DNA of 64,000 nucleotides, from contig NZ_KB911581.1 of NCBI RefSeq assembly GCF_000383595.1, positions 8,391,519-8,455,518 of the forward strand, given 5' to 3'. The translations under genes and the position numbers were made by a program. Shown piece after piece: positions 245 to 20,731 of this stretch (its first letter is position 1; the number at the start of each line of letters is the position of its first letter). The notes under the pieces were generated by a model. That model was not told the origin of the DNA. It saw nothing but the letters and a program-made list of their open reading frames with translations, and ran no database searches. Origin of the DNA: Streptomyces bottropensis ATCC 25435. GTDB taxonomy: Bacteria > Actinomycetota > Actinomycetes > Streptomycetales > Streptomycetaceae.

Positions 245-1809
245 AGGCGCTCCCTGAGTTCGCGGCGGAGGATCTTCCCGGAGGCCGCGCGGGGCACGGC
301 GTCGATGAAGGTGACGTGGCGGACGCGCTTGTAGGGGGCGACGCGTTCGGCGACGTACATCATGATCTCGCCCTCGGAGAGTTCACCGCCGGTGGGGCGG
401 CGGACGACGAAGGCGTGCGGGACCTCGTTGCCGTCGTCGTTGTAGTGGCCGATGACGGCCGCGTCGGTGATGCCGGGGTGGGTGACGAGGAGGGCTTCGA
501 GTTCGGCGGGGGCGACCTGGAACCCCTTGTACTTGATCAGTTCCTTGACGCGGTCGACGACGTACAGCCAGCCGTCGGCGTCGGTGTGGCCGATGTCGCC
601 GGTGGAGAGCCAGCCGTCGGCGTCGATCATGTCGGCGGTGGCCTGGGGGCGGCCCAGGTAGCCCTTCATGACCTGGGGGCCCCGGATGACGATCTCGCCC
701 GGTTCGCCGGGGCCGAGGTCCGTGCCGGGGTCGTCGAGGGAGACGATCCGCATCTCGGTGCCGGCGATGAGCCTGCCCACGGTGCCGGGGGGCGCGGAGG
801 CGGCCCGGTCGAGGGGCACGATGTGGGAGCAGGGGGACAGTTCGGTCATGCCGTAGCCCTGGACGACGGGTGGCAGGCCGAGGCGGGCGGAGCAGGCGGC
901 GGCGAGCCTCGCGTCGAGGGGTGCGGCGGCGGAGAGGATGTGCCGGACCGTGGAGAGGTCGTGTCGCTCGGCCGCCGGATGCTTGGCGAGGGCGAGGACG
1001 ATCGGCGGGGCCACGTAGAGGTGGGTGATGCGGTGCCGGACGATCGCCGCGAGGTAGCTCTCCAGGTCGAAGCGGGGCAGGACGACGACCGTGGCGCCGA
1101 GTCGCAGCGGGGCGTTCATCAGGGCGGTGAGACCGTAGATGTGGAAGAACGGCAGGACGGCGAGGATGCGGTCGCCGGGGCCCGCCGGCATGACCGGTTC
1201 GAGCTGGGCGAGGTTGGTGGCGATGGACCGGTGGGTGAGCATGACCCCCTTGGGGACGCCGGTGGTGCCGGAGGAGTACGGCAGGACCGCCACGTCCGTG
1301 ACCGGGTCGATGTCGACGGCCGGTTCGGGTGCCGCACCGGCGAGCATGTCGATCAGCGAGCGGTGCCCGGGAGCGCTGTCGCAGACGAAGATCTCCCGTA
1401 TGCCGCCGACGCGTTCGGCGGCGGCGCGGGCGGTCTGCAGCAGCGGGGAGACGGTGACGATCCAGCTCGCCCCCGAGTCCCGCAGCTGGGTGGCCAGCTC
1501 TCCGGGGGTGGCCAGCGGGTGCGCGGTGGTGACCGTGGCGCCCGCGCGGGTGGCCGCGTAGAACGCCGTCGGGTAGGCGATCGTGTTGGGGCTGTGCAGG
1601 GCGAGGACGTCGCCCTTGCCCACGCCCGCCTCGGCGAACGCGGCGGCGAGGCGCCGGTGGAAGCGGTCCACCTGTTCGTAGGTGAGGGTCGTGCCGTCGA
1701 CGCCGTCGATCAGCGCGGGCAGGTCGCCGAACTCGGCGGCACGGGCCAGTACGGCGTCGTGGATGGGGAGTTCGACGGGTGGGACGTCTGCGTACTCGCT
1801 GCGGAACAT
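241..1809 (-). CDS. AMP-dependent acyl-CoA synthetase, 4-coumarate:CoA ligase type
   Basis: This 522-aa protein has full ANL-superfamily length. The P-loop-like motif YSSGTTGVPKGVMLTH is near residue 180, the acyl/adenylate pocket segment QGYGMTELSP is near 320, and the C-terminal hinge and lysine region runs STGDIGHTDADGWLYVVDR, then KELIKYKGFQVAPAELE, ending ASGKILRREL. It should activate a carboxylic acid to its CoA thioester through an acyl-AMP intermediate. It lies 66 bp downstream of the acyl-CoA dehydrogenase and its TGA overlaps the GTG of the enoyl-CoA hydratase. In this setting it would supply the acyl-CoA that the operon degrades. The real substrate cannot be read from sequence; '4-coumarate' is only the closest family label. 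Confidence 0.9.
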   Translation of the reverse strand: MFRSEYADVPPVELPIHDAVLARAAEFGDLPALIDGVDGTTLTYEQVDRFHRRLAAAFAEAGVGKGDVLALHSPNTIAYPTAFYAATRAGATVTTAHPLATPGELATQLRDSGASWIVTVSPLLQTARAAAERVGGIREIFVCDSAPGHRSLIDMLAGAAPEPAVDIDPVTDVAVLPYSSGTTGVPKGVMLTHRSIATNLAQLEPVMPAGPGDRILAVLPFFHIYGLTALMNAPLRLGATVVVLPRFDLESYLAAIVRHRITHLYVAPPIVLALAKHPAAERHDLSTVRHILSAAAPLDARLAAACSARLGLPPVVQGYGMTELSPCSHIVPLDRAASAPPGTVGRLIAGTEMRIVSLDDPGTDLGPGEPGEIVIRGPQVMKGYLGRPQATADMIDADGWLSTGDIGHTDADGWLYVVDRVKELIKYKGFQVAPAELEALLVTHPGITDAAVIGHYNDDGNEVPHAFVVRRPTGGELSEGEIMMYVAERVAPYKRVRHVTFIDAVPRAASGKILRRELRERL

Positions 1810-1875
1810 GGTTCCTCCTCGTGCGCTCCGGCTCGTGACGCCGCGCTCCGGCGACGTGGGGCGGCGCCCGGCGGC

Positions 1876-3039
1876 TCAGTACGACTTCGGCAGGCCCAGG
1901 GTCTGGTGGGAGACGTAGTTGAGAATCATCTCCCGGCTCACCGGCGCGATACGAGACACGCGCGCGGCCGTGATGAGCGAGGCGAGGCCGAACTCGGCCG
2001 TGAGGCCGTTGCCGCCGAGGGTGTGCACGGCCTGGTCGACGGCCTTCACACAGGCCTCCCCCGCCGCGTACTTGGCCATGTTGGCGGCCTCGCCGGCCGC
2101 CGCGTCGTCGCCGGCGTCGTAGAGGTGCGCCGCCTTCTGCATCATCAGGCGGGCCAGTTCGAGTTCGATGTGGGACTGGGCGAGGGGGTGGGCGATGGCC
2201 TGGTGGGCGCCGATGGGCTGCCCCCAGACGGTGCGTTCGCGGGCGTAGTCGACGGCTCGGGCGAGGGCGTACCTGGCCATGCCGATCGCGAAGGCGGCGG
2301 TCATGATCCGTTCCGGGTTGAGGCCGGCGAACAGCTGGAGGAGACCGGCGTTCTCGTCGCCGACCAGGGCGTCGGCGGGGAGCCGGATGTCGTCGAAGGT
2401 CAGCTCGAACTGCTTCTCGGCGGCCCGGAGTTCCATGTCGATCGGGCGGTACGCGAAGCCGGGGGTGTCGGTGGGGACGATGAAGAGGCAGGGCTTGAGG
2501 GTGCCGGTGCGGGCGTCCTCGGTGCGGCCCACGATGAGGACGGCGTCGGCCCTGTCGACGCCGGAGATGAAGACCTTGCGGCCGGTGAGCAGCCAGTCCC
2601 CGGTCTCGTCCCGGCGGGCCGTGGTGGTGATGCGGTGGCTGTTGGAGCCGGCGTCGGGTTCGGTGATGCCGAAGGCCATGAGGCGGGTGCCGTTCGCCAG
2701 CGCGGGCAGCCAGGCCCGTCGCTGGGCCTCGGTGCCGAAGCGGGCGATGACCGTGCCGCAGATGGCCGGCGACACGATCATCATCAGCAGGGGGCAGCCC
2801 GCGGCGCCGAGTTCCTCCAGGACGATGGAGAGTTCGGCGATGCCGCCGCCTCCGCCGTCGTACTCCTCGGGGAGGTTGACGCCCAGGTAGCCGAGTTCGG
2901 CCGCCTCGGACCAGAGTTCGTCGGGGTGGCGGCCCTCCTTGTTGATCGTGGTGATGTAGTCGCGGCCGTAGCGTTTGCCGAGGGCGGAGACCGCGGCTCG
3001 GAGGGCCTTGTGTTCTTCGGATTCCAGCACGGGGGACAT
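1876..3039 (-). CDS. acyl-CoA dehydrogenase
   Basis: This 387-aa flavoenzyme has normal acyl-CoA dehydrogenase length. Landmarks are the helical N-domain, the FAD/substrate segment FGITEPDAGSNSHRI, the beta-domain motif TGRKVFISGVDRAD, and the C-terminal helices with RTVWGQPIGAHQAIAHPLA and VDQAVHTLGGNGLTAEFGL. It oxidises acyl-CoA to 2-enoyl-CoA, passing electrons to ETF. It sits between the carboxylase alpha gene (111 bp upstream) and the acyl-CoA ligase (66 bp downstream). In leucine (liu) or acyclic-terpene (atu) pathways the matching enzyme is isovaleryl- or citronellyl-CoA dehydrogenase; which applies here is not known. Confidence 0.9.
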   Translation of the reverse strand: MSPVLESEEHKALRAAVSALGKRYGRDYITTINKEGRHPDELWSEAAELGYLGVNLPEEYDGGGGGIAELSIVLEELGAAGCPLLMMIVSPAICGTVIARFGTEAQRRAWLPALANGTRLMAFGITEPDAGSNSHRITTTARRDETGDWLLTGRKVFISGVDRADAVLIVGRTEDARTGTLKPCLFIVPTDTPGFAYRPIDMELRAAEKQFELTFDDIRLPADALVGDENAGLLQLFAGLNPERIMTAAFAIGMARYALARAVDYARERTVWGQPIGAHQAIAHPLAQSHIELELARLMMQKAAHLYDAGDDAAAGEAANMAKYAAGEACVKAVDQAVHTLGGNGLTAEFGLASLITAARVSRIAPVSREMILNYVSHQTLGLPKSY

Positions 3040-3150
3040 CGGGGGCTCCTAAGGGGGAGGGTGCGTCTGCCGTTCGGAGGGGTGCGGGTGGTTCGTGGCT
3101 TGGTCGCGCTCGCGCGGCGAAGCCGCCTGTCGAGACAGCCCCGCGCCCCC

Positions 3151-5022
3151 TCAGCGGGGCTGCTCCTCGACCACGGCCAGGAGGGCGCCCATCTCCACCT
3201 GCTGACCAGGTACCGCGTGCAGGGCGGTCAGCGTGCCTGTCGCCGGGGCCGTGATCCTGTGTTCCATCTTCATCGCCTCCAGCCAGAGGAGGGGCTGGCC
3301 CGCCTGTACGGCCGACCCGGGACTCAGGTCCTGCGCCAGGCGGACGACCGTGCCCGGCATGGGGGCCAGGAGGGAGCCGGGGGCGTGCTCGGTGGTGGGG
3401 TCGGGGAAGCGGGGCAGGGCGGTGAGGGTCGTGGTGTCGACGTGGATCCGGTCGCCGTACCGCGCGACCTCGAACGTCCGCCGCACACCGTCCACTTCGA
3501 GCACGACGAGGCGGGCGTCCGCGTGGACGACCCGGACGCCGTCCGCCTCCGGGCCGGTCCTGGTGTGCCGGTAGCGGACCTCGTGCTCCTCCCCCGCCAT
3601 CACGTACCGCTTGACCTGGGGCTGGGACGGCAGACTGCGCCAGCCTCCGAAGCGGGGGTCGCCCCCGGAGGCGGCGTCGGCCAGGGCGGCGGCCAGCGGG
3701 GCGTGCGGATCGGGGGCGGGGTCCGTGAGGCCGGCGAGGTGGCGGCCGTAGAAGCCGGTGTCCATCCGGGCCGACGTGAACTCCTCGTGGCGCAGGGAGT
3801 TCACCAGCAGGGCCCTGTTCGTGGCCGGGCCGTGGATCGTGGCCCGCTCCAGGGCGCCCGCCAGCCTGCGGACGGCCTCCGCGCGGGTGGGGGCGTGGAC
3901 GACGGCCTTGGCGAGCATGGGGTCGTAGTGGACGCCGATGGTGTCGCCGTCCTCGTAGCCGGTGTCCAGGCGGACCCCGGGCACGGACAGGCGGTGCAGG
4001 GTGCCCGTCTGCGGGGCCCAGTCGTGGGCCGGGTCCTCGGCGTACAGGCGGGCCTCGATCGCGTGGCCGCGTGCGGGCGGGGGGTCGGCCGGGAGGGCGT
4101 GGCCCTCGGCGACGCGGATCTGTTCGGCGACCAGGTCGAGGCCGAAGACGGCCTCCGTGACCGGGTGTTCGACCTGGAGGCGGGTGTTCATCTCCAGGAA
4201 GTGGGCCCTGCCGTCGGCGACGAGGAACTCGACCGTGCCCGCGCCGACGTAGGAGACGGCCCGGGCGGCGCGTACGGCCAGGGTGTGGAGTTCCTCGGTG
4301 AGTTCGCCGGTCAGGGCGGGGGCCGGGGCCTCCTCGACGACCTTCTGATGGCGGCGCTGGAGGGAGCAGTCGCGGGTGCCCAGGGGCCAGATCGTGCCGT
4401 GGGTGTCGGCGAGGATCTGGACCTCGACGTGGCGGCCGTTCTCGACGTACGGCTCGACGAAGACCTCGCCGTCGCCGAAGGCGCTCGCGGCCTCGGCGCG
4501 GGCGCTCTCCAGGGCCGCGTCCAGGTCGTCGAGGTGACGGACCACGCGCATACCGCGTCCGCCGCCGCCCGCCGCGGCCTTCACCAGGACCGGCAGGTCG
4601 TCCTCGGTGACCTTGTGGAGGGGGGCCAGACCCATGAGTTCCTTGGCGCGGGTCTTGGACGCCATGGCTTCGATCGCCTCGGGGGCCGGGCCGATCCAGG
4701 TGAGGCCCGCGTCGAGGACCTGGCGGGCGAAGCCGGGGTTCTCGGAGAGGAAGCCGTAGCCGGGGTGGACGGCGTCGGCGCCGGCCGCGAGGGCGGCCCG
4801 CACGATGCGGTCACCGCGCAGATAGGTGTCGGCGGGGGCCGCGCCCGGCAGTCGCACGGCCGCGTCGGCCATCCGCGTGTGCAGGGCGCTCTCGTCGGCG
4901 TCGGAGTGCACGGCGACCGTCCGGATGCCCAGCTCACGGCAGGTGCGGAAGATCCGGCAGGCGATCTCGCCCCGGTTGGCCACCAGGAGGGAAGTGATCA
5001 GGGAAGTACGCACGAGCCTCAC
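3151..5022 (-). CDS. acyl-CoA carboxylase alpha subunit (biotin carboxylase + BCCP)
   Basis: I start this 623-aa protein at the GTG at 5022, because it overlaps the TGA of the beta-subunit gene (GTGA) as at other junctions of this operon; a longer reading frame to 5088 would run into that gene. Domains: biotin carboxylase N-lobe (SLLVANRGEIACRIFRTCREL), ATP-grasp loop AAAGGGGRGMRVV, catalytic/ATP segments (EVFVEPYVENGRHVEVQI, LEMNTRLQVEHPVTE), a linker, and a C-terminal biotinyl domain with the attachment site EAMKMEHRI. It carboxylates biotin and partners the beta chain. Odd feature: between SKTRAKELM and VTEDDLP there are only about nine residues, where relatives have a longer stretch with an AGVP motif. 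See findings. Confidence 0.92.
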   Translation of the reverse strand: MRLVRTSLITSLLVANRGEIACRIFRTCRELGIRTVAVHSDADESALHTRMADAAVRLPGAAPADTYLRGDRIVRAALAAGADAVHPGYGFLSENPGFARQVLDAGLTWIGPAPEAIEAMASKTRAKELMGLAPLHKVTEDDLPVLVKAAAGGGGRGMRVVRHLDDLDAALESARAEAASAFGDGEVFVEPYVENGRHVEVQILADTHGTIWPLGTRDCSLQRRHQKVVEEAPAPALTGELTEELHTLAVRAARAVSYVGAGTVEFLVADGRAHFLEMNTRLQVEHPVTEAVFGLDLVAEQIRVAEGHALPADPPPARGHAIEARLYAEDPAHDWAPQTGTLHRLSVPGVRLDTGYEDGDTIGVHYDPMLAKAVVHAPTRAEAVRRLAGALERATIHGPATNRALLVNSLRHEEFTSARMDTGFYGRHLAGLTDPAPDPHAPLAAALADAASGGDPRFGGWRSLPSQPQVKRYVMAGEEHEVRYRHTRTGPEADGVRVVHADARLVVLEVDGVRRTFEVARYGDRIHVDTTTLTALPRFPDPTTEHAPGSLLAPMPGTVVRLAQDLSPGSAVQAGQPLLWLEAMKMEHRITAPATGTLTALHAVPGQQVEMGALLAVVEEQPR

Positions 5023-14814: not shown

Positions 14815-17250
14815 ATGACCGCGCCCAGCTCACCTCGCTCACCAGGCGAACGCCCCGCCCTGCGCTCAGTCCTTCCCCTGCCCCTGGTGACCGCCCTGCT
14901 CACCGCGACCGCCACCGGAGCCGCGGTCGCGGTGGCGCCGCAGTCCGTGCGGACGCCCCTCGCCGCCGGGGCGGGGGCGGCCGCGCTGCTGCTCACGGCG
15001 GTCGTCGCGGTCGCCATGCACGCGCGCGTGTCGGTGCGACTGCTGCGCCTGCGGCTCGACGCCGTCTCCCGGGAGACCGGTCTGCTGCTGCGGGAGCGGG
15101 CCCGGAGGGCCGAGGAGTTCGCGCAGGAGCGGGGGCGGCTGACGGAGGAGTTCGTCCAGGAGCGGGCGCGGATCGCGGCCGAGTTCGCCCGGGAACGGGT
15201 GCGGCTGACGACGGAGTCCGAGCGCGAACGCGAACGACTGTCCGACGAGCGGGACCGCGCGGCGGAGGAGATCACCCAGGAGCGGGTGGCGCTGTCCGAA
15301 CGCGCCAAGCAGGCCGAGACCGAACGCTCCGCCGTCCTCGCCGTCACCGCCAACGTGGCAGGCCGGATGCAGGCCCTCGCCACCGCCACCCTCGCCGACC
15401 TCCGCGCCATGGAGGAACGTCACGCCGACGAGGACGTCCTCGCCGACCTGCTCCACCTCGACCACCGCACCGCCCAGGCGGGCCGTCTCGCCGACTCCGT
15501 CGCCGTCCTCGCGGGCGCGCGCTCGGGCCGCCGCTGGGCCCGCCCGATCCCCATGGAGTCGATCCTGCGCGGCGCGATGGGCCGCATCGGCGCCTACCGC
15601 CGGGTCCGGCTGCACTCCTCCAGCGAGACCGCCGTCGCCGGTCACGCCGCCGAGGGCGTCATGCACGCGCTCGCCGAACTCCTCGACAACGCGGCGAACT
15701 TCTCGCCACCGACCGCCGAGGTCCATGTGTACGTCGAGGAGGTCCCGGCCGGCGCGATCATCTCGGTCGAGGACTCCGGGCTCGTCATGGGCGATGTCCA
15801 GCTCCGGCGCGCCGAACGCGCCGTGTCGGGCGAGGCCACCGACCTGGCGAGCCTCTCCGGCACGCGTCTCGGCCTCGCCGTCGTCGGCCGCCTCGCCCGC
15901 AAGCACGCCCTGCGGATCTCCTTCCGCCCGTCCGCGCGCGGCGGCACGGGCGTCCTCATGCTCATCCCGCAGGACGTCCTGGCGAGCACGATGCCCACGA
16001 CGGCGTCTCCCACGGGGTCCGCCCCGGCCCAGTCGCCCTACGGAGGCGTGCGCGCCCCGCACGATCTGGACGCCGAGCCGACGCCGACCCACTCGTTCCC
16101 GACGGACGCCCCGGCCGCCCCTGTCGCCGACCCGGTGGCGGACGCCCTGATCGACTCCTTGTCCGGCTACAGGAACGCCACCCCCGCGCCGGATCCGACC
16201 CCGGCTCCGGCCCCGGCCCCGGACAATCCGGCCGGCGCACCGGCGTTCGGTTCCTCGTACGACGGTTCGTCCGACTACTCGTCCGGCTACTCGTCCGACT
16301 ATTCGTCCGGTTCCTCGCAGGACTCCTCTTACGACTCCCCTTACGACTCCTCTCACGACCCTTCGTACGGGTCCCCGAGAGGCACTTCGGGTTCCGCCTT
16401 CGGCTCGTCGTTCCGCTCGTCGTTCAGCTCGGAATTCGGCACCGGGGAGTACGAGTCCGGTTCCGCCGACGAGACCGCCGCCCCCTCAGACGCCCTGCCC
16501 CGGCGCCGTCGCGGCCAGTCCCTCGCCGACGCGGAGGCCCGTACCCGGGCCGCGGCCGATGCCGCCGCGGCCCGGCCGGAGCGGACCTCCCGGCCCGCCG
16601 AGGACGCAAGCAGCGGTGCCGTGCGGTTCAGCAGTTTCCGCCGCGCGGTGCGGGGCACGGGCGGCGGGCTGGACCAGGCGTTCGTCCAGGGGACGGCCGC
16701 GGACGACGAGGGCGCCACGGGTGTGCCGCCCGGGACCGGCGCCGCCCTGGAACCCGTACGGGACGCCGCCGCGCCCGCCGAAGCCGTACGGCAGCCGGAG
16801 TTGGAGCCGGTGCGGGAGTCCGAGTGGGGTGCGGTGGCGGGCTCGGCGTGGGAGCCCGGACCCGAACCCGTACGGGAGACGGCCTGGGAACCCGGGCCAC
16901 CCGTGCAGGACGGCGCATGGGCGCCCGAGCCCGCGCGGGGCCTCGTGTGGGAGCCGGAGGCGGTGAAGGAGGCGGCCTGGCAGGCGGAGGCCGCCGCCGA
17001 GCTTCCCTGGGCGCCGGACCCCGCGGGGGAGGCCAAGTGGGAGCTGGACCCCGTAAGGGAACTGGCCTGGGAACCCGCACGGGACACCCGCCCGGCCCCG
17101 GACGACGACACCGGCTCCGCGTCCTACCCCTCCCCGTCCTACCCGGACCCCGACCCGGACCCCGACCCGGACCCCGACCCGGCCGGAGAGCGGCTCCCCG
17201 CCCCGGACCCGCGCACGCACCCCCACCTGGAAGGCGACCACACCCCATGA
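14815..17250 (+). CDS. cvnA: conservon sensor-like ATPase CvnA (histidine-kinase-like), with a long repetitive tail
   Basis: This protein is 811 aa. Two membrane helices (about 19-41 and 48-69) are followed by a charged coiled coil (about 75-180). Next comes a GHKL ATPase module with N-box LAELLDNAANFSPP near 285, VEDSGLVMG near 320 and the segment GTRLGLAVVGRLARKHAL. No phosphoacceptor H-box is apparent, as is usual for CvnA proteins. From about residue 410 the protein is low-complexity: a Ser/Tyr/Asp-rich stretch, nine Trp residues (671-752) settling into a strict 10-residue period, and a (DP)n run. The start follows GAGGA. Its TGA overlaps cvnB (ATGA). Conservons are proposed membrane-associated GTPase signalling units in actinobacteria. 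Confidence 0.88.
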   Translation: MTAPSSPRSPGERPALRSVLPLPLVTALLTATATGAAVAVAPQSVRTPLAAGAGAAALLLTAVVAVAMHARVSVRLLRLRLDAVSRETGLLLRERARRAEEFAQERGRLTEEFVQERARIAAEFARERVRLTTESERERERLSDERDRAAEEITQERVALSERAKQAETERSAVLAVTANVAGRMQALATATLADLRAMEERHADEDVLADLLHLDHRTAQAGRLADSVAVLAGARSGRRWARPIPMESILRGAMGRIGAYRRVRLHSSSETAVAGHAAEGVMHALAELLDNAANFSPPTAEVHVYVEEVPAGAIISVEDSGLVMGDVQLRRAERAVSGEATDLASLSGTRLGLAVVGRLARKHALRISFRPSARGGTGVLMLIPQDVLASTMPTTASPTGSAPAQSPYGGVRAPHDLDAEPTPTHSFPTDAPAAPVADPVADALIDSLSGYRNATPAPDPTPAPAPAPDNPAGAPAFGSSYDGSSDYSSGYSSDYSSGSSQDSSYDSPYDSSHDPSYGSPRGTSGSAFGSSFRSSFSSEFGTGEYESGSADETAAPSDALPRRRRGQSLADAEARTRAAADAAAARPERTSRPAEDASSGAVRFSSFRRAVRGTGGGLDQAFVQGTAADDEGATGVPPGTGAALEPVRDAAAPAEAVRQPELEPVRESEWGAVAGSAWEPGPEPVRETAWEPGPPVQDGAWAPEPARGLVWEPEAVKEAAWQAEAAAELPWAPDPAGEAKWELDPVRELAWEPARDTRPAPDDDTGSASYPSPSYPDPDPDPDPDPDPAGERLPAPDPRTHPHLEGDHTP

Positions 17251-17813
17251 CCGGTACCGGTATCGGCACCACCGCCGACGACAGGCTCACCTGGCTCATG
17301 GAGGGACTGCTGGAACGCACTCCGGGCGCCCGGCACGCGCTCGTCCTCTCCCGGGACGGTCTGCGCCTGTGCCGTACCCCCGAGCTGTCCGTCGACCGGG
17401 CGGACCAGCTCTCCGCGATCGCCGCCGGCATCCAGTCGCTCTCGCAGGGGGCGTCCATGGAGTTCGGCGACGGCAGCGGAGGCGTACGGACGGCGATGGC
17501 GGAGTTCCACGGCGGGGTCCTGTTCATCGTGGAGGCGGGCGAGGGCGCGCATCTGGCCGTGGTGACGGACGAGGAGGCGGACGCCGGTCTCGTCGGCCAC
17601 AACATGAGCGAGCTGGTCGAACAACTCGGCGAGCACCTGAGCGCGAAGCCGCGCCAGCCGACGAGCGCGGCCGCCCCATCGGCCGCGACCGGCCCGACGG
17701 CCGCGAGGAACGCGACCGGCCCGATGGGCGCGACGGGCACGACCGGTGCCGCCGCCGTGATCACCGCTACGACGACGACCGCGGCTACGGCTCTGGCGCC
17801 CCGTACGTCATGA
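17247..17813 (+). CDS. cvnB: roadblock/LC7-domain protein CvnB
   Basis: The 188-aa protein opens with a roadblock/LC7 domain: DRLTWLMEGLLERTPGARHA, LVLSRDGLRLCRTPELSVDR, AIAAGIQSLSQGASMEFG, and VLFIVEAGEGAHLAVVTDEE with ADAGLVGHNMSELVEQL. Roadblock proteins in these systems are thought to bind the small GTPase partner and the sensor. After about residue 133 a Thr/Ala/Pro-rich low-complexity tail follows. Both ends overlap neighbours by ATGA, so it is coupled to cvnA and cvnC. Confidence 0.9.
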   Translation: MTGTGIGTTADDRLTWLMEGLLERTPGARHALVLSRDGLRLCRTPELSVDRADQLSAIAAGIQSLSQGASMEFGDGSGGVRTAMAEFHGGVLFIVEAGEGAHLAVVTDEEADAGLVGHNMSELVEQLGEHLSAKPRQPTSAAAPSAATGPTAARNATGPMGATGTTGAAAVITATTTTAATALAPRTS

Positions 17814-18157
17814 GCCGGCCCGGCAGGGACGACCTGCCCGACCGGCTCTACACGCTCACCGGGGGGCGCAGCCGTTCGGCGCCCGGAACGCCGTTCGACC
17901 TGGTGACCCTGGTGGTGGCGGAGAGCCAGCCGGTGCCCGGCATGCAGTCGGAGCACGTGGCGATCCTGCGGCTGACGGAGCGGCCGACGGCGGTCGTGGA
18001 GATCGCCGCCGAGCTGCGGCTGCCGGTGAGCATCACGAAGGTGCTGCTCTCCGACCTCCTCGCGGCCGGCCGGGTCAGCGCCCGGCACCCGAACCAGGCC
18101 ACGCTGATCGATCCGGACATCCTGGAGCAGGTGCTAGTTGGACTTCGCAACCTCTGA
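17810..18157 (+). CDS. cvnC: DUF742 protein CvnC
   Basis: The 115-aa DUF742 protein has RLYTLTGGRSRSA, FDLVTLVVAESQPVPGMQSE, HVAILRLTERPTAVVEIAAE, LRLPVSITKVLLSDLLAAGR and the family C-terminus EQVLVGLRNL. The central part is a predicted winged-helix-like fold. The ATG overlaps the cvnB stop. Normally the next gene, cvnD, starts inside the last codons of cvnC. Here the downstream reading frame does start there, but it encodes a P450. Confidence 0.88.
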   Translation: MSRPGRDDLPDRLYTLTGGRSRSAPGTPFDLVTLVVAESQPVPGMQSEHVAILRLTERPTAVVEIAAELRLPVSITKVLLSDLLAAGRVSARHPNQATLIDPDILEQVLVGLRNL

Positions 18158-19418
18158 CAACGGCGACGGCCACCCGTTCCCCCTGCCTCCGCTCTCGTCC
18201 CCCGCGTCCGTCCCCGTGCCCCTCCTCGGTGCGCGTGTCCAGGGTGCTCCCGCCGCCCGGTACGGGGATCTGCGGCGGGAGCACGGCGAGGTGGTGCCCG
18301 TGCTGCTCGACGGGGGCCTACCGGCGTGGCTGGTGCTCGGCTACAGCGAGCTGCACCAGGTGACCAGCGATCCGGAGCTGTTCAGCCGGGACTCGGGGCT
18401 GTGGAACCAGTGGCCGAACATCCCGGCCGACTGGCCGCTGCTCCCCGTCATCAGCCCCGATCAGCCCTCGGTCCTCGGCACGGTCGGCGAGCGGCACCGG
18501 CAGCGGGCCGCGCTGATCGAGGAGGCGCTGGAGGCGGTCGAGCCGCTCGAACTGCGCGGCCATGTCGAGCGGTTCGCGGACGAGTTGATCGACGTGGTGT
18601 GCGGGGTGGGCGCGGCCGATCTGGTGGGGCAGTTCGCGGCGCTGCTGCCCGTACGGGTGCTGGCGTACCTCTTCGGCTTCCGGGAGGAACACGGTCCCGG
18701 GCTGGTGGTCGCGCTGAACGACATCCTCGACGGCCAGGACCGGGCGATGGCGGCGGAGGGGTATCTGCGCACGGCGATGGACCGGCTGGTGTCGGAGCGG
18801 CTGCGGCAGCCCGGCGACGACGTGGTCTCGCGGCTCCTCGCGAACGCGCGCGCGTACGAGGTGACGGTCGAGGAGGTCACCCACGACGTGATGGTGATGC
18901 TGGCGGTGGGGCATCAGCCGACCGCCGACTGGATCGGCAACTCGCTGCATCTGATGCTGACGGACGAGCGGTTCGCGGCGTCGTTGTTCGGAGGGCGCAG
19001 CAGTGTGGCCGAGGCGATGAACGAGGTGCTGTGGGAGGACGCGCCGATCCAGAACGTGGCCGGGCGGTGGGCCACCCGTGACACACGGCTCGGTGGGCGG
19101 GTGCTCCGTGCGGGTGACCTCGTCCTGCTGGGGCTCCAGGGGGCCAACTCCGATCCGCGGGTGCGTACGCAGGGGGCGCTCACCGGTGGCAACAACGCGC
19201 ACTTCTCCTTCGGGCACGGGGAGCACCGGTGTCCCTTTCCGGCGCAGGAGACGGCCGAGGTCATCGCCCGTACGGGTATCGAAGTCGTCCTGGACCGGCT
19301 TCCGGACATGGACCTCGCGGTCCCGTCCGGGGCCCTGGCCCGGCGGGTGTCTCCTTGGCTACGGGGGCTGGTGGAGCTGCCTGTGCGGTTCGCGCCGGGG
19401 CCGGTCCGTGGGGTCTGA
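18138..19418 (+). CDS. cytochrome P450, CYP157-like, in the cvnD position
   Basis: The protein is 426 aa from a TTG at 18138, overlapping cvnC by 20 bp. The heme loop FSFGHGEHRCPFPAQE supplies the cysteine ligand. Two canonical motifs are altered: the K-helix ExxR reads NEVLWEDAP (no Arg), as known for CYP157 enzymes, and the I-helix reads VGHQPTADW instead of AGxxTT. The first residues, MDFATSD, are those I associate with conservon GTPases; the P450-like part begins around HPFPLPPLSSPASVPVPLLG. CYP157-type P450s usually lie after cvnD. The GTPase gene is missing, so this may be a deletion fusion. Catalytic competence is uncertain. Confidence 0.85.
   Translation: MDFATSDNGDGHPFPLPPLSSPASVPVPLLGARVQGAPAARYGDLRREHGEVVPVLLDGGLPAWLVLGYSELHQVTSDPELFSRDSGLWNQWPNIPADWPLLPVISPDQPSVLGTVGERHRQRAALIEEALEAVEPLELRGHVERFADELIDVVCGVGAADLVGQFAALLPVRVLAYLFGFREEHGPGLVVALNDILDGQDRAMAAEGYLRTAMDRLVSERLRQPGDDVVSRLLANARAYEVTVEEVTHDVMVMLAVGHQPTADWIGNSLHLMLTDERFAASLFGGRSSVAEAMNEVLWEDAPIQNVAGRWATRDTRLGGRVLRAGDLVLLGLQGANSDPRVRTQGALTGGNNAHFSFGHGEHRCPFPAQETAEVIARTGIEVVLDRLPDMDLAVPSGALARRVSPWLRGLVELPVRFAPGPVRGV

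Positions 19419-19460: not shown

Positions 19461-20731
<1,271 letters not shown>

Follow-up and report, generated by a model that had tools for sequence, protein, structure and literature searches.

Recurrent loss of the GTPase gene cvnD from a CYP157A-like Streptomyces conservon, and capture of its translation start by a cytochrome P450 gene

The window (the whole stretch of 64,000 nucleotides of Streptomyces bottropensis DNA that was analysed) carries a group of conservon genes followed directly by a cytochrome P450 gene and then by serC, with the following features.

14815..17250, + strand: cvnA, histidine-kinase-like; HATPase_c (Pfam), two hydrophobic segments with a short loop, LPxR at residue 561
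17247..17813, + strand: cvnB, Roadblock/LC7 (MglB-like); Robl_LC7, 1.1e-22 (Pfam)
17810..18157, + strand: cvnC; DUF742, 3.6e-34 (Pfam)
18124..18140, + strand: Shine-Dalgarno-like GGAGCAGG inside cvnC, then TAG at 18135-18137 (in the P450 frame), then the TTG start
18138..18157, + strand: overlap of cvnC tail and P450 start, 20 nt, equal to the cvnC/cvnD overlap in relatives; cvnD is absent here
18138..19418, + strand: P450, CYP157A-like (cvnE type), with an N-terminal tail that begins at the captured TTG
19607..20731, + strand: serC; TIGR01366, E 1.8e-215

The four genes from cvnA to the P450 are all intact and lie on the same (+) strand, each overlapping the next. This agrees with the initial annotation, which had described cvnA, cvnB and cvnC as intact and coupled with no cvnD behind them, as the reading frames overlap and there is no GTPase open reading frame before the P450. 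The locus resembles the conservons (AGPS) in its gene order, in the LPxR tail of CvnA (present as LPRR at residue 561), in the Roadblock/LC7 domain of CvnB and the DUF742 domain of CvnC, both found by Pfam, and in its P450 accessory; it differs in that the defining CvnD gene is missing from its place beside cvnC, and in that a P450 stands on the cvnD start. Pfam found no sensor domain in CvnA, HATPase_c being the sole domain detected. Accessories of the cvnE type lie at most four genes from such a sensor-less cvnA, and here the P450 is three genes away. The best PDB match of CvnB is cvnB5 (3leq, E 7.5e-26).

In the K-helix, where CYP157 members carry EVLW or EQSLW in place of ExxR, the P450 has EVLW (residues 296-299), its heme ligand is Cys365 within FGHGEHRC, and the CYP157A-like label denotes these two features, the family having been compared through its published description. 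It shares both, together with linkage to a conservon, with CYP157A (PMC3599690), from which it differs in following cvnC directly, in having lost its CYP154 neighbour and in changes throughout its clade at 11 of 228 conserved columns. The closest PDB structure is CYP154C1 (1gwi, E 2.9e-44); NCBIfam P450 models match with scores below their cut-offs and none of the Pfam models reaches E 0.001. An AlphaFold2 model built with 24 close sequences had a mean pLDDT of 46 and was set aside. Judged by its gene content, the locus is a CYP157A-like Streptomyces conservon minus cvnD and minus a second, CYP154C-like P450, and it may be linked to cvn11 of S. coelicolor.

To place this arrangement among its relatives, loci were gathered by similarity to the window P450, which gives a sample enriched for the window's relatives, from 150 and then 392 Streptomyces genomes (only strong matches being kept in the second search), from the best 80 of 504 named loci and from extra stretches. 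Annotation of 205 loci for cvnC, cvnD, the P450 and a second P450, with four dropped for identity below 60%, left 201 loci representing 170 distinct sequences. In this sample cvnD is present in 142 and absent in 25, and three could not be scored, two being contig ends and the third (L181, genome G012) a CYP157-CYP154 pair with neither cvnC nor cvnD upstream, that is, a P450 pair outside a conservon. In the 150 evenly drawn genomes, 72 had a P450 match of at least 60%, with cvnD present in 65, absent in six (the window included) and one pair without a conservon. The alignment with relatives that the initial annotation had proposed thus recovered a GTPase gene between cvnC and the P450 in most orthologous loci, and its statement that cvnD normally lies there holds for 142 of the 170. 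The neighbourhood was compared in those 78 of the best 80 of 504 loci that span 5 kb or more, where serC adjoins 32 of 61 cvnD-bearing loci, 13 of 16 cvnD-less loci and the single unscored one; the remaining loci without an adjoining serC, the S. flaveus group among them, have another neighbourhood or lie on a short stretch.

The initial annotation had named two findings that would count against a deletion. One, an assembly error that dropped cvnD, or more broadly an artefact of assembly or annotation, is refuted and can be regarded as virtually impossible, because the identical joint is found in independent assemblies, several of them complete or single-contig (S. scabiei 87.22, HM190, G254, G228 and G350). 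The other was that close relatives should all share the arrangement with a P450 natively starting MDF. The arrangement is indeed shared across the S. scabiei-like clade, since the loss there is an old one that has become fixed; it is not native, as most orthologous loci bear cvnD.

Loss of cvnD does not appear to be common across conservons in general, since in 12 genomes, four of them chosen for lacking cvnD at the present locus, 119 of 128 DUF742 places are accompanied on the same strand by a cvnD no more than 1.5 kb away. The other nine comprise four instances of the present locus, three places with cvnD some 4 kb further on, one long kinase-like protein and one weak fragment. At G007:C1:3448260, G064:C1:1222202 and G254:C1:2215787 cvnC and cvnD stand on the same strand some 4 kb apart, and L232 (G109) encodes at 869-3775 a long protein, read by eye, that combines a kinase-like region with a C-terminal DUF742.

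At the present locus a codon tree of the P450 requires a minimum of five losses, on which Fitch and loss-only counting agree: one in G032/G109, one in S. flaveus, S. ureilyticus and S. scabichelini, one in S. bluensis together with the 17-row clade that contains the window, one in G315 and one in G033. A single clade of all 25 cvnD-less rows is rejected, at a cost of 248 log-likelihood units (p-AU 2.3e-55, 69 of the 170 rows). The tree is built from the P450 alone, some of its backbone branches are weak (45-57) and the last two losses are of one genome each. Comparison of the loci establishes at this level that cvnD was lost independently at no fewer than five points, in the window's clade and in at least four other lineages; repeated regain of cvnD through recombination may be considered as against repeated loss.

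The joint between cvnC and the P450 can be read against the cvnD-bearing loci, in which cvnD opens at a TTG 17 nt before the end of the last cvnC codon. This is the TTG at which the window P450 starts, as had been proposed when the P450 start inside the end of cvnC was identified as the usual cvnD start. In these relatives the P450 core lies in a frame other than that of cvnD, and its gene probably begins at the cvnD stop or close to it; therefore the proposed in-frame deletion joining cvnD to the P450 stands in part only: a deletion occurred and the P450 now sits on the cvnD start, and a plain in-frame event is excluded by the difference in frames. The likeness of MDFATSD to CvnD N-termini, offered as evidence at the same time, does not count as independent evidence. 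The CvnDs of this locus mostly begin MDS and a few MDF or MDY (TTG being read as M), and the codons concerned are largely set by the overlapping cvnC tail GLRNL and its stop, so that the first seven residues alone are no proof; the evidence for a cvnD deletion is comparative.

Start capture could be recognised in 17 loci of the S. scabiei-like clade, in S. bluensis and in three loci of the S. flaveus group. In all 21 the P450 core is in frame with the TTG and no stop intervenes, although the distance between them varies from 90 to 783 nt. The remaining three losses are represented by four loci (L020, L134, L192 and L195); in none of these is the core in frame with the TTG, and L020 and L134 have a Shine-Dalgarno-like site and a GTG after cvnC. 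These alignments establish that the CYP157 frame took over the cvnD ribosome site and TTG in two losses, that of the window's clade with S. bluensis and that of the S. flaveus group, and they indicate that such capture is absent from the other three. A breakpoint had been predicted near codon 8 of the P450. The joints of S. scabichelini (MDFVTSD/PVPLGG) and S. flaveus (MDFVTSDGRTPLGG/DPVPLGG; compare CvnDs such as MDSATSDARTPLGAS) fall almost where predicted and, by their sequence, are remains of cvnD, extending in S. flaveus some six residues past the overlap. For the window's clade the prediction has no such counterpart, there being no recognisable CvnD from codon 7 to the P450 core. Open frames of about 600 codons had suggested a cvnD-P450 fusion, which was rejected because the frames differ in relatives and the P450 frame is merely open across cvnD. 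In S. ipomoeae (L054, 5278-6000) the captured TTG gives the P450 an uninterrupted tail of about 240 residues, rich in Gly, Pro and Ser.

The cvnC Leu codon before the TTG (window 18134-18137) is CTC in all 142 cvnD-bearing rows and CTA (11) or TTA (5) in 16 of the 17 clade rows, the latter two creating a TAG in the P450 frame just upstream of the TTG. We take this codon change as a remodelling of the captured start. A remodelling for stronger initiation was considered and rejected, the effect being small (mean 50-nt MFE -8.1 against -9.7). TTA is the bldA codon, and the aligned cvnB, cvnC and P450 stretches, whether from the clade or from cvnD-bearing loci, contain no other instance of it, so that cvnC could be bldA-dependent in five clade loci.

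The ancestral order behind cvnA, as these loci show, was cvnB-C-D-CYP157-CYP154, the second P450 of the relatives being CYP154C1-like (1gwi, 705 bits). CYP154 was itself lost separately several times, the window's clade included; it is missing before serC here, and nothing closely similar was found in the window genome (best match 44%). The number of departures from conserved P450 sites per locus is 15-22 in the 19 loci without cvnD and CYP154, 2-4 in the six without cvnD only, 5-27 (median 7) in the nine without CYP154 only and of median 5 (maximum 35) in the 133 with both. The few departures where only cvnD is gone and the many where both are gone therefore suggest that change follows loss of the second P450 rather than loss of cvnD, although not in every CYP154-less locus, and the idea that cvnD loss drives P450 change was dropped. 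Many changes at conserved CYP157 sites are seen in two lineages without both genes and in four of the nine cvnD-bearing loci without CYP154. CYP157 and CYP154 may work as a pair.

Selection on the remaining genes was assessed by pairwise dN/dS (Nei-Gojobori) within the same locus. For the window's clade, represented by 17 distinct loci (nine for cvnA), the values are 0.27 for cvnA, 0.12 for cvnB, 0.27 for cvnC and 0.22 for the P450. They fall within the ranges of cvnD-bearing clades (0.24-0.37 for cvnA in three clades; 0.07-0.19, 0.10-0.39 and 0.10-0.25 for cvnB, cvnC and the P450 in nine clades each), in the upper part for the last three genes; pooled pairs with both cvnD and CYP154 give values slightly above those of the clade for the same three. 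An earlier cvnB estimate on fewer loci was 0.17, above the three clades then measured (0.08-0.13). These ratios establish that all four genes remain under purifying selection.

At columns conserved in cvnD-bearing loci, clade-wide changes number 3 of 171 in CvnA, none of 94 in CvnB, none of 66 in CvnC and the 11 already given for the P450; by the same measure cvnD-bearing clades show 0-3 (CvnB), 0-1 (CvnC) and 0-3 (P450). Where enough upstream sequence is available, LPxR is present in 10 of 11 cvnD-less loci as against 53 of 53 cvnD-bearing ones. Mean departures from conserved CvnB residues are 5.3 in six cvnD-less loci that keep the second P450, 2.7 in 17 lacking both and 1.9 in 131 with both, and several cvnD-less loci have only 0 or 1. 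The higher figures would fit weakened contacts with a GTPase, and some loosening is possible.

No orthologue of the missing CvnD was found elsewhere in the window genome: the best of its 12 CvnDs has 63% identity to a CvnD of the locus, for comparison with 74-81% in the 10 cvnD-bearing loci listed, and relocation of the gene was rejected on this ground. In the window's own genome near 2.50 Mb there is a cvnB-cvnD pair without cvnC (L231, 4432-5675, - strand); G064, G092, G108, G254 and G296 likewise contain cvnDs that have no cvnC nearby.

The best explanation, which we hold with considerable confidence, is a conservon from which cvnD and a CYP154C-like P450 were deleted, whose P450 captured the vacated start, whose remaining genes are constrained and which would still signal; it is probably a functional conservon derivative without a GTPase of its own. 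The initial annotation saw such a module as having the P450 for its output or else as borrowing a GTPase in trans; the first of these readings finds no support. In PMC13343842 the CvnE and CvnF accessories are modulators of CvnA: CvnF8 activates CvnA8, CvnE11 is placed on the ATPase domains of CvnA11 (published as a model only), and P450 accessories accompany CvnAs without a sensor domain, a pairing that the window CvnA and P450 fit. Given the published action of CvnF8 and CvnE11 on CvnA, a role for the P450 as an input-side modulator is more likely than one as output. The P450-like CvnE would sense a ligand, or simply bind CvnA, and so tune the kinase, which would in turn act on CvnB and CvnC.

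What lies downstream may take one of three forms. That CvnB (GAP-like) and CvnC (GEF-like) act in trans on the CvnD of another conservon, as a second input there, is quite possible, if slightly short of probable. The conserved columns of both proteins are unchanged throughout the clade and 12 other CvnDs are encoded in the genome, although an identity of 63% is low for a specific partner and CvnB is more variable in several cvnD-less loci. The nearest paralogue type (that of locus L003, at 63%) has a match of E 1e-95 or better in all 14 cvnD-less genomes tested, as against 19 of 25 cvnD-bearing ones; this is a slight difference between related genomes, and the type is also present in 14 of 20 genomes that lack the present locus. 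A complete unit of CvnA, CvnB, CvnC and P450 that signals free of any GTPase, with CvnC (called HTH-like in the literature) or some other protein as output, can be entertained with rather less assurance: cvnD has gone repeatedly while cvnC and the P450 were kept, and all four genes are constrained in the window's clade, yet the retained CvnB and CvnC surfaces are equally explained by action in trans, and cvnC and cvnD mutants of S. coelicolor cvn8 behave alike (PMC8510531). The stronger proposal, in which a P450-like ligand sensor with CvnA, CvnB and CvnC forms a complete GTPase-free pathway reached independently at least five times, is doubtful.

Slow decay, in which a conservon without its switch is vanishing and the P450 survives for some other role, is unlikely. 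The loss of CYP154 as well, the more changed CvnB of some loci, the broken cvnC match (in two frames) of the S. ossamyceticus draft (L015/L050) and the P450 pair retained by G012 without cvnC or cvnD all speak for it; against it, dN/dS is far below 1 for all four genes across those 17 loci (nine for cvnA), and the start region has been remodelled and retained.

Loss of a conservon GTPase was already known, Wuichet and Sogaard-Andersen having inferred in 2014 the loss of Group 2 mglA for some conservons (PMC4316618). Their orphan MglB homologues flanked by conservon genes have likewise lost a Group 2 GTPase gene, and the accessible part of that paper notes a patchy distribution, with no treatment of repeated loss from a single locus, of start capture or of the selection acting on the remaining genes. 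In the mycobacterial mfp conservon, homologues of CvnB and CvnC regulate a homologue of CvnD, MfpD being a GAP and MfpC likely a GEF for the GTPase MfpB; it differs from the present locus in that the GTPase is present and no P450 is named there in the available text (PMC13343842, PMC13015309). A literature search, with subscription journals largely outside it, found no description of recurrent cvnD loss at the present locus or of the start capture.

The start capture clearly exemplifies how a gene whose neighbour is deleted can adopt the coupled translation start that the neighbour had used. Recurrent natural deletions of cvnD with the neighbours retained amount to replicate experiments that part the GTPase from the remainder of the module, and with them it can be asked if CvnB and CvnC make use of a GTPase from elsewhere, and if the signal is carried by CvnC or by the P450; they bear on the output of conservons and on the role of their P450 accessories.
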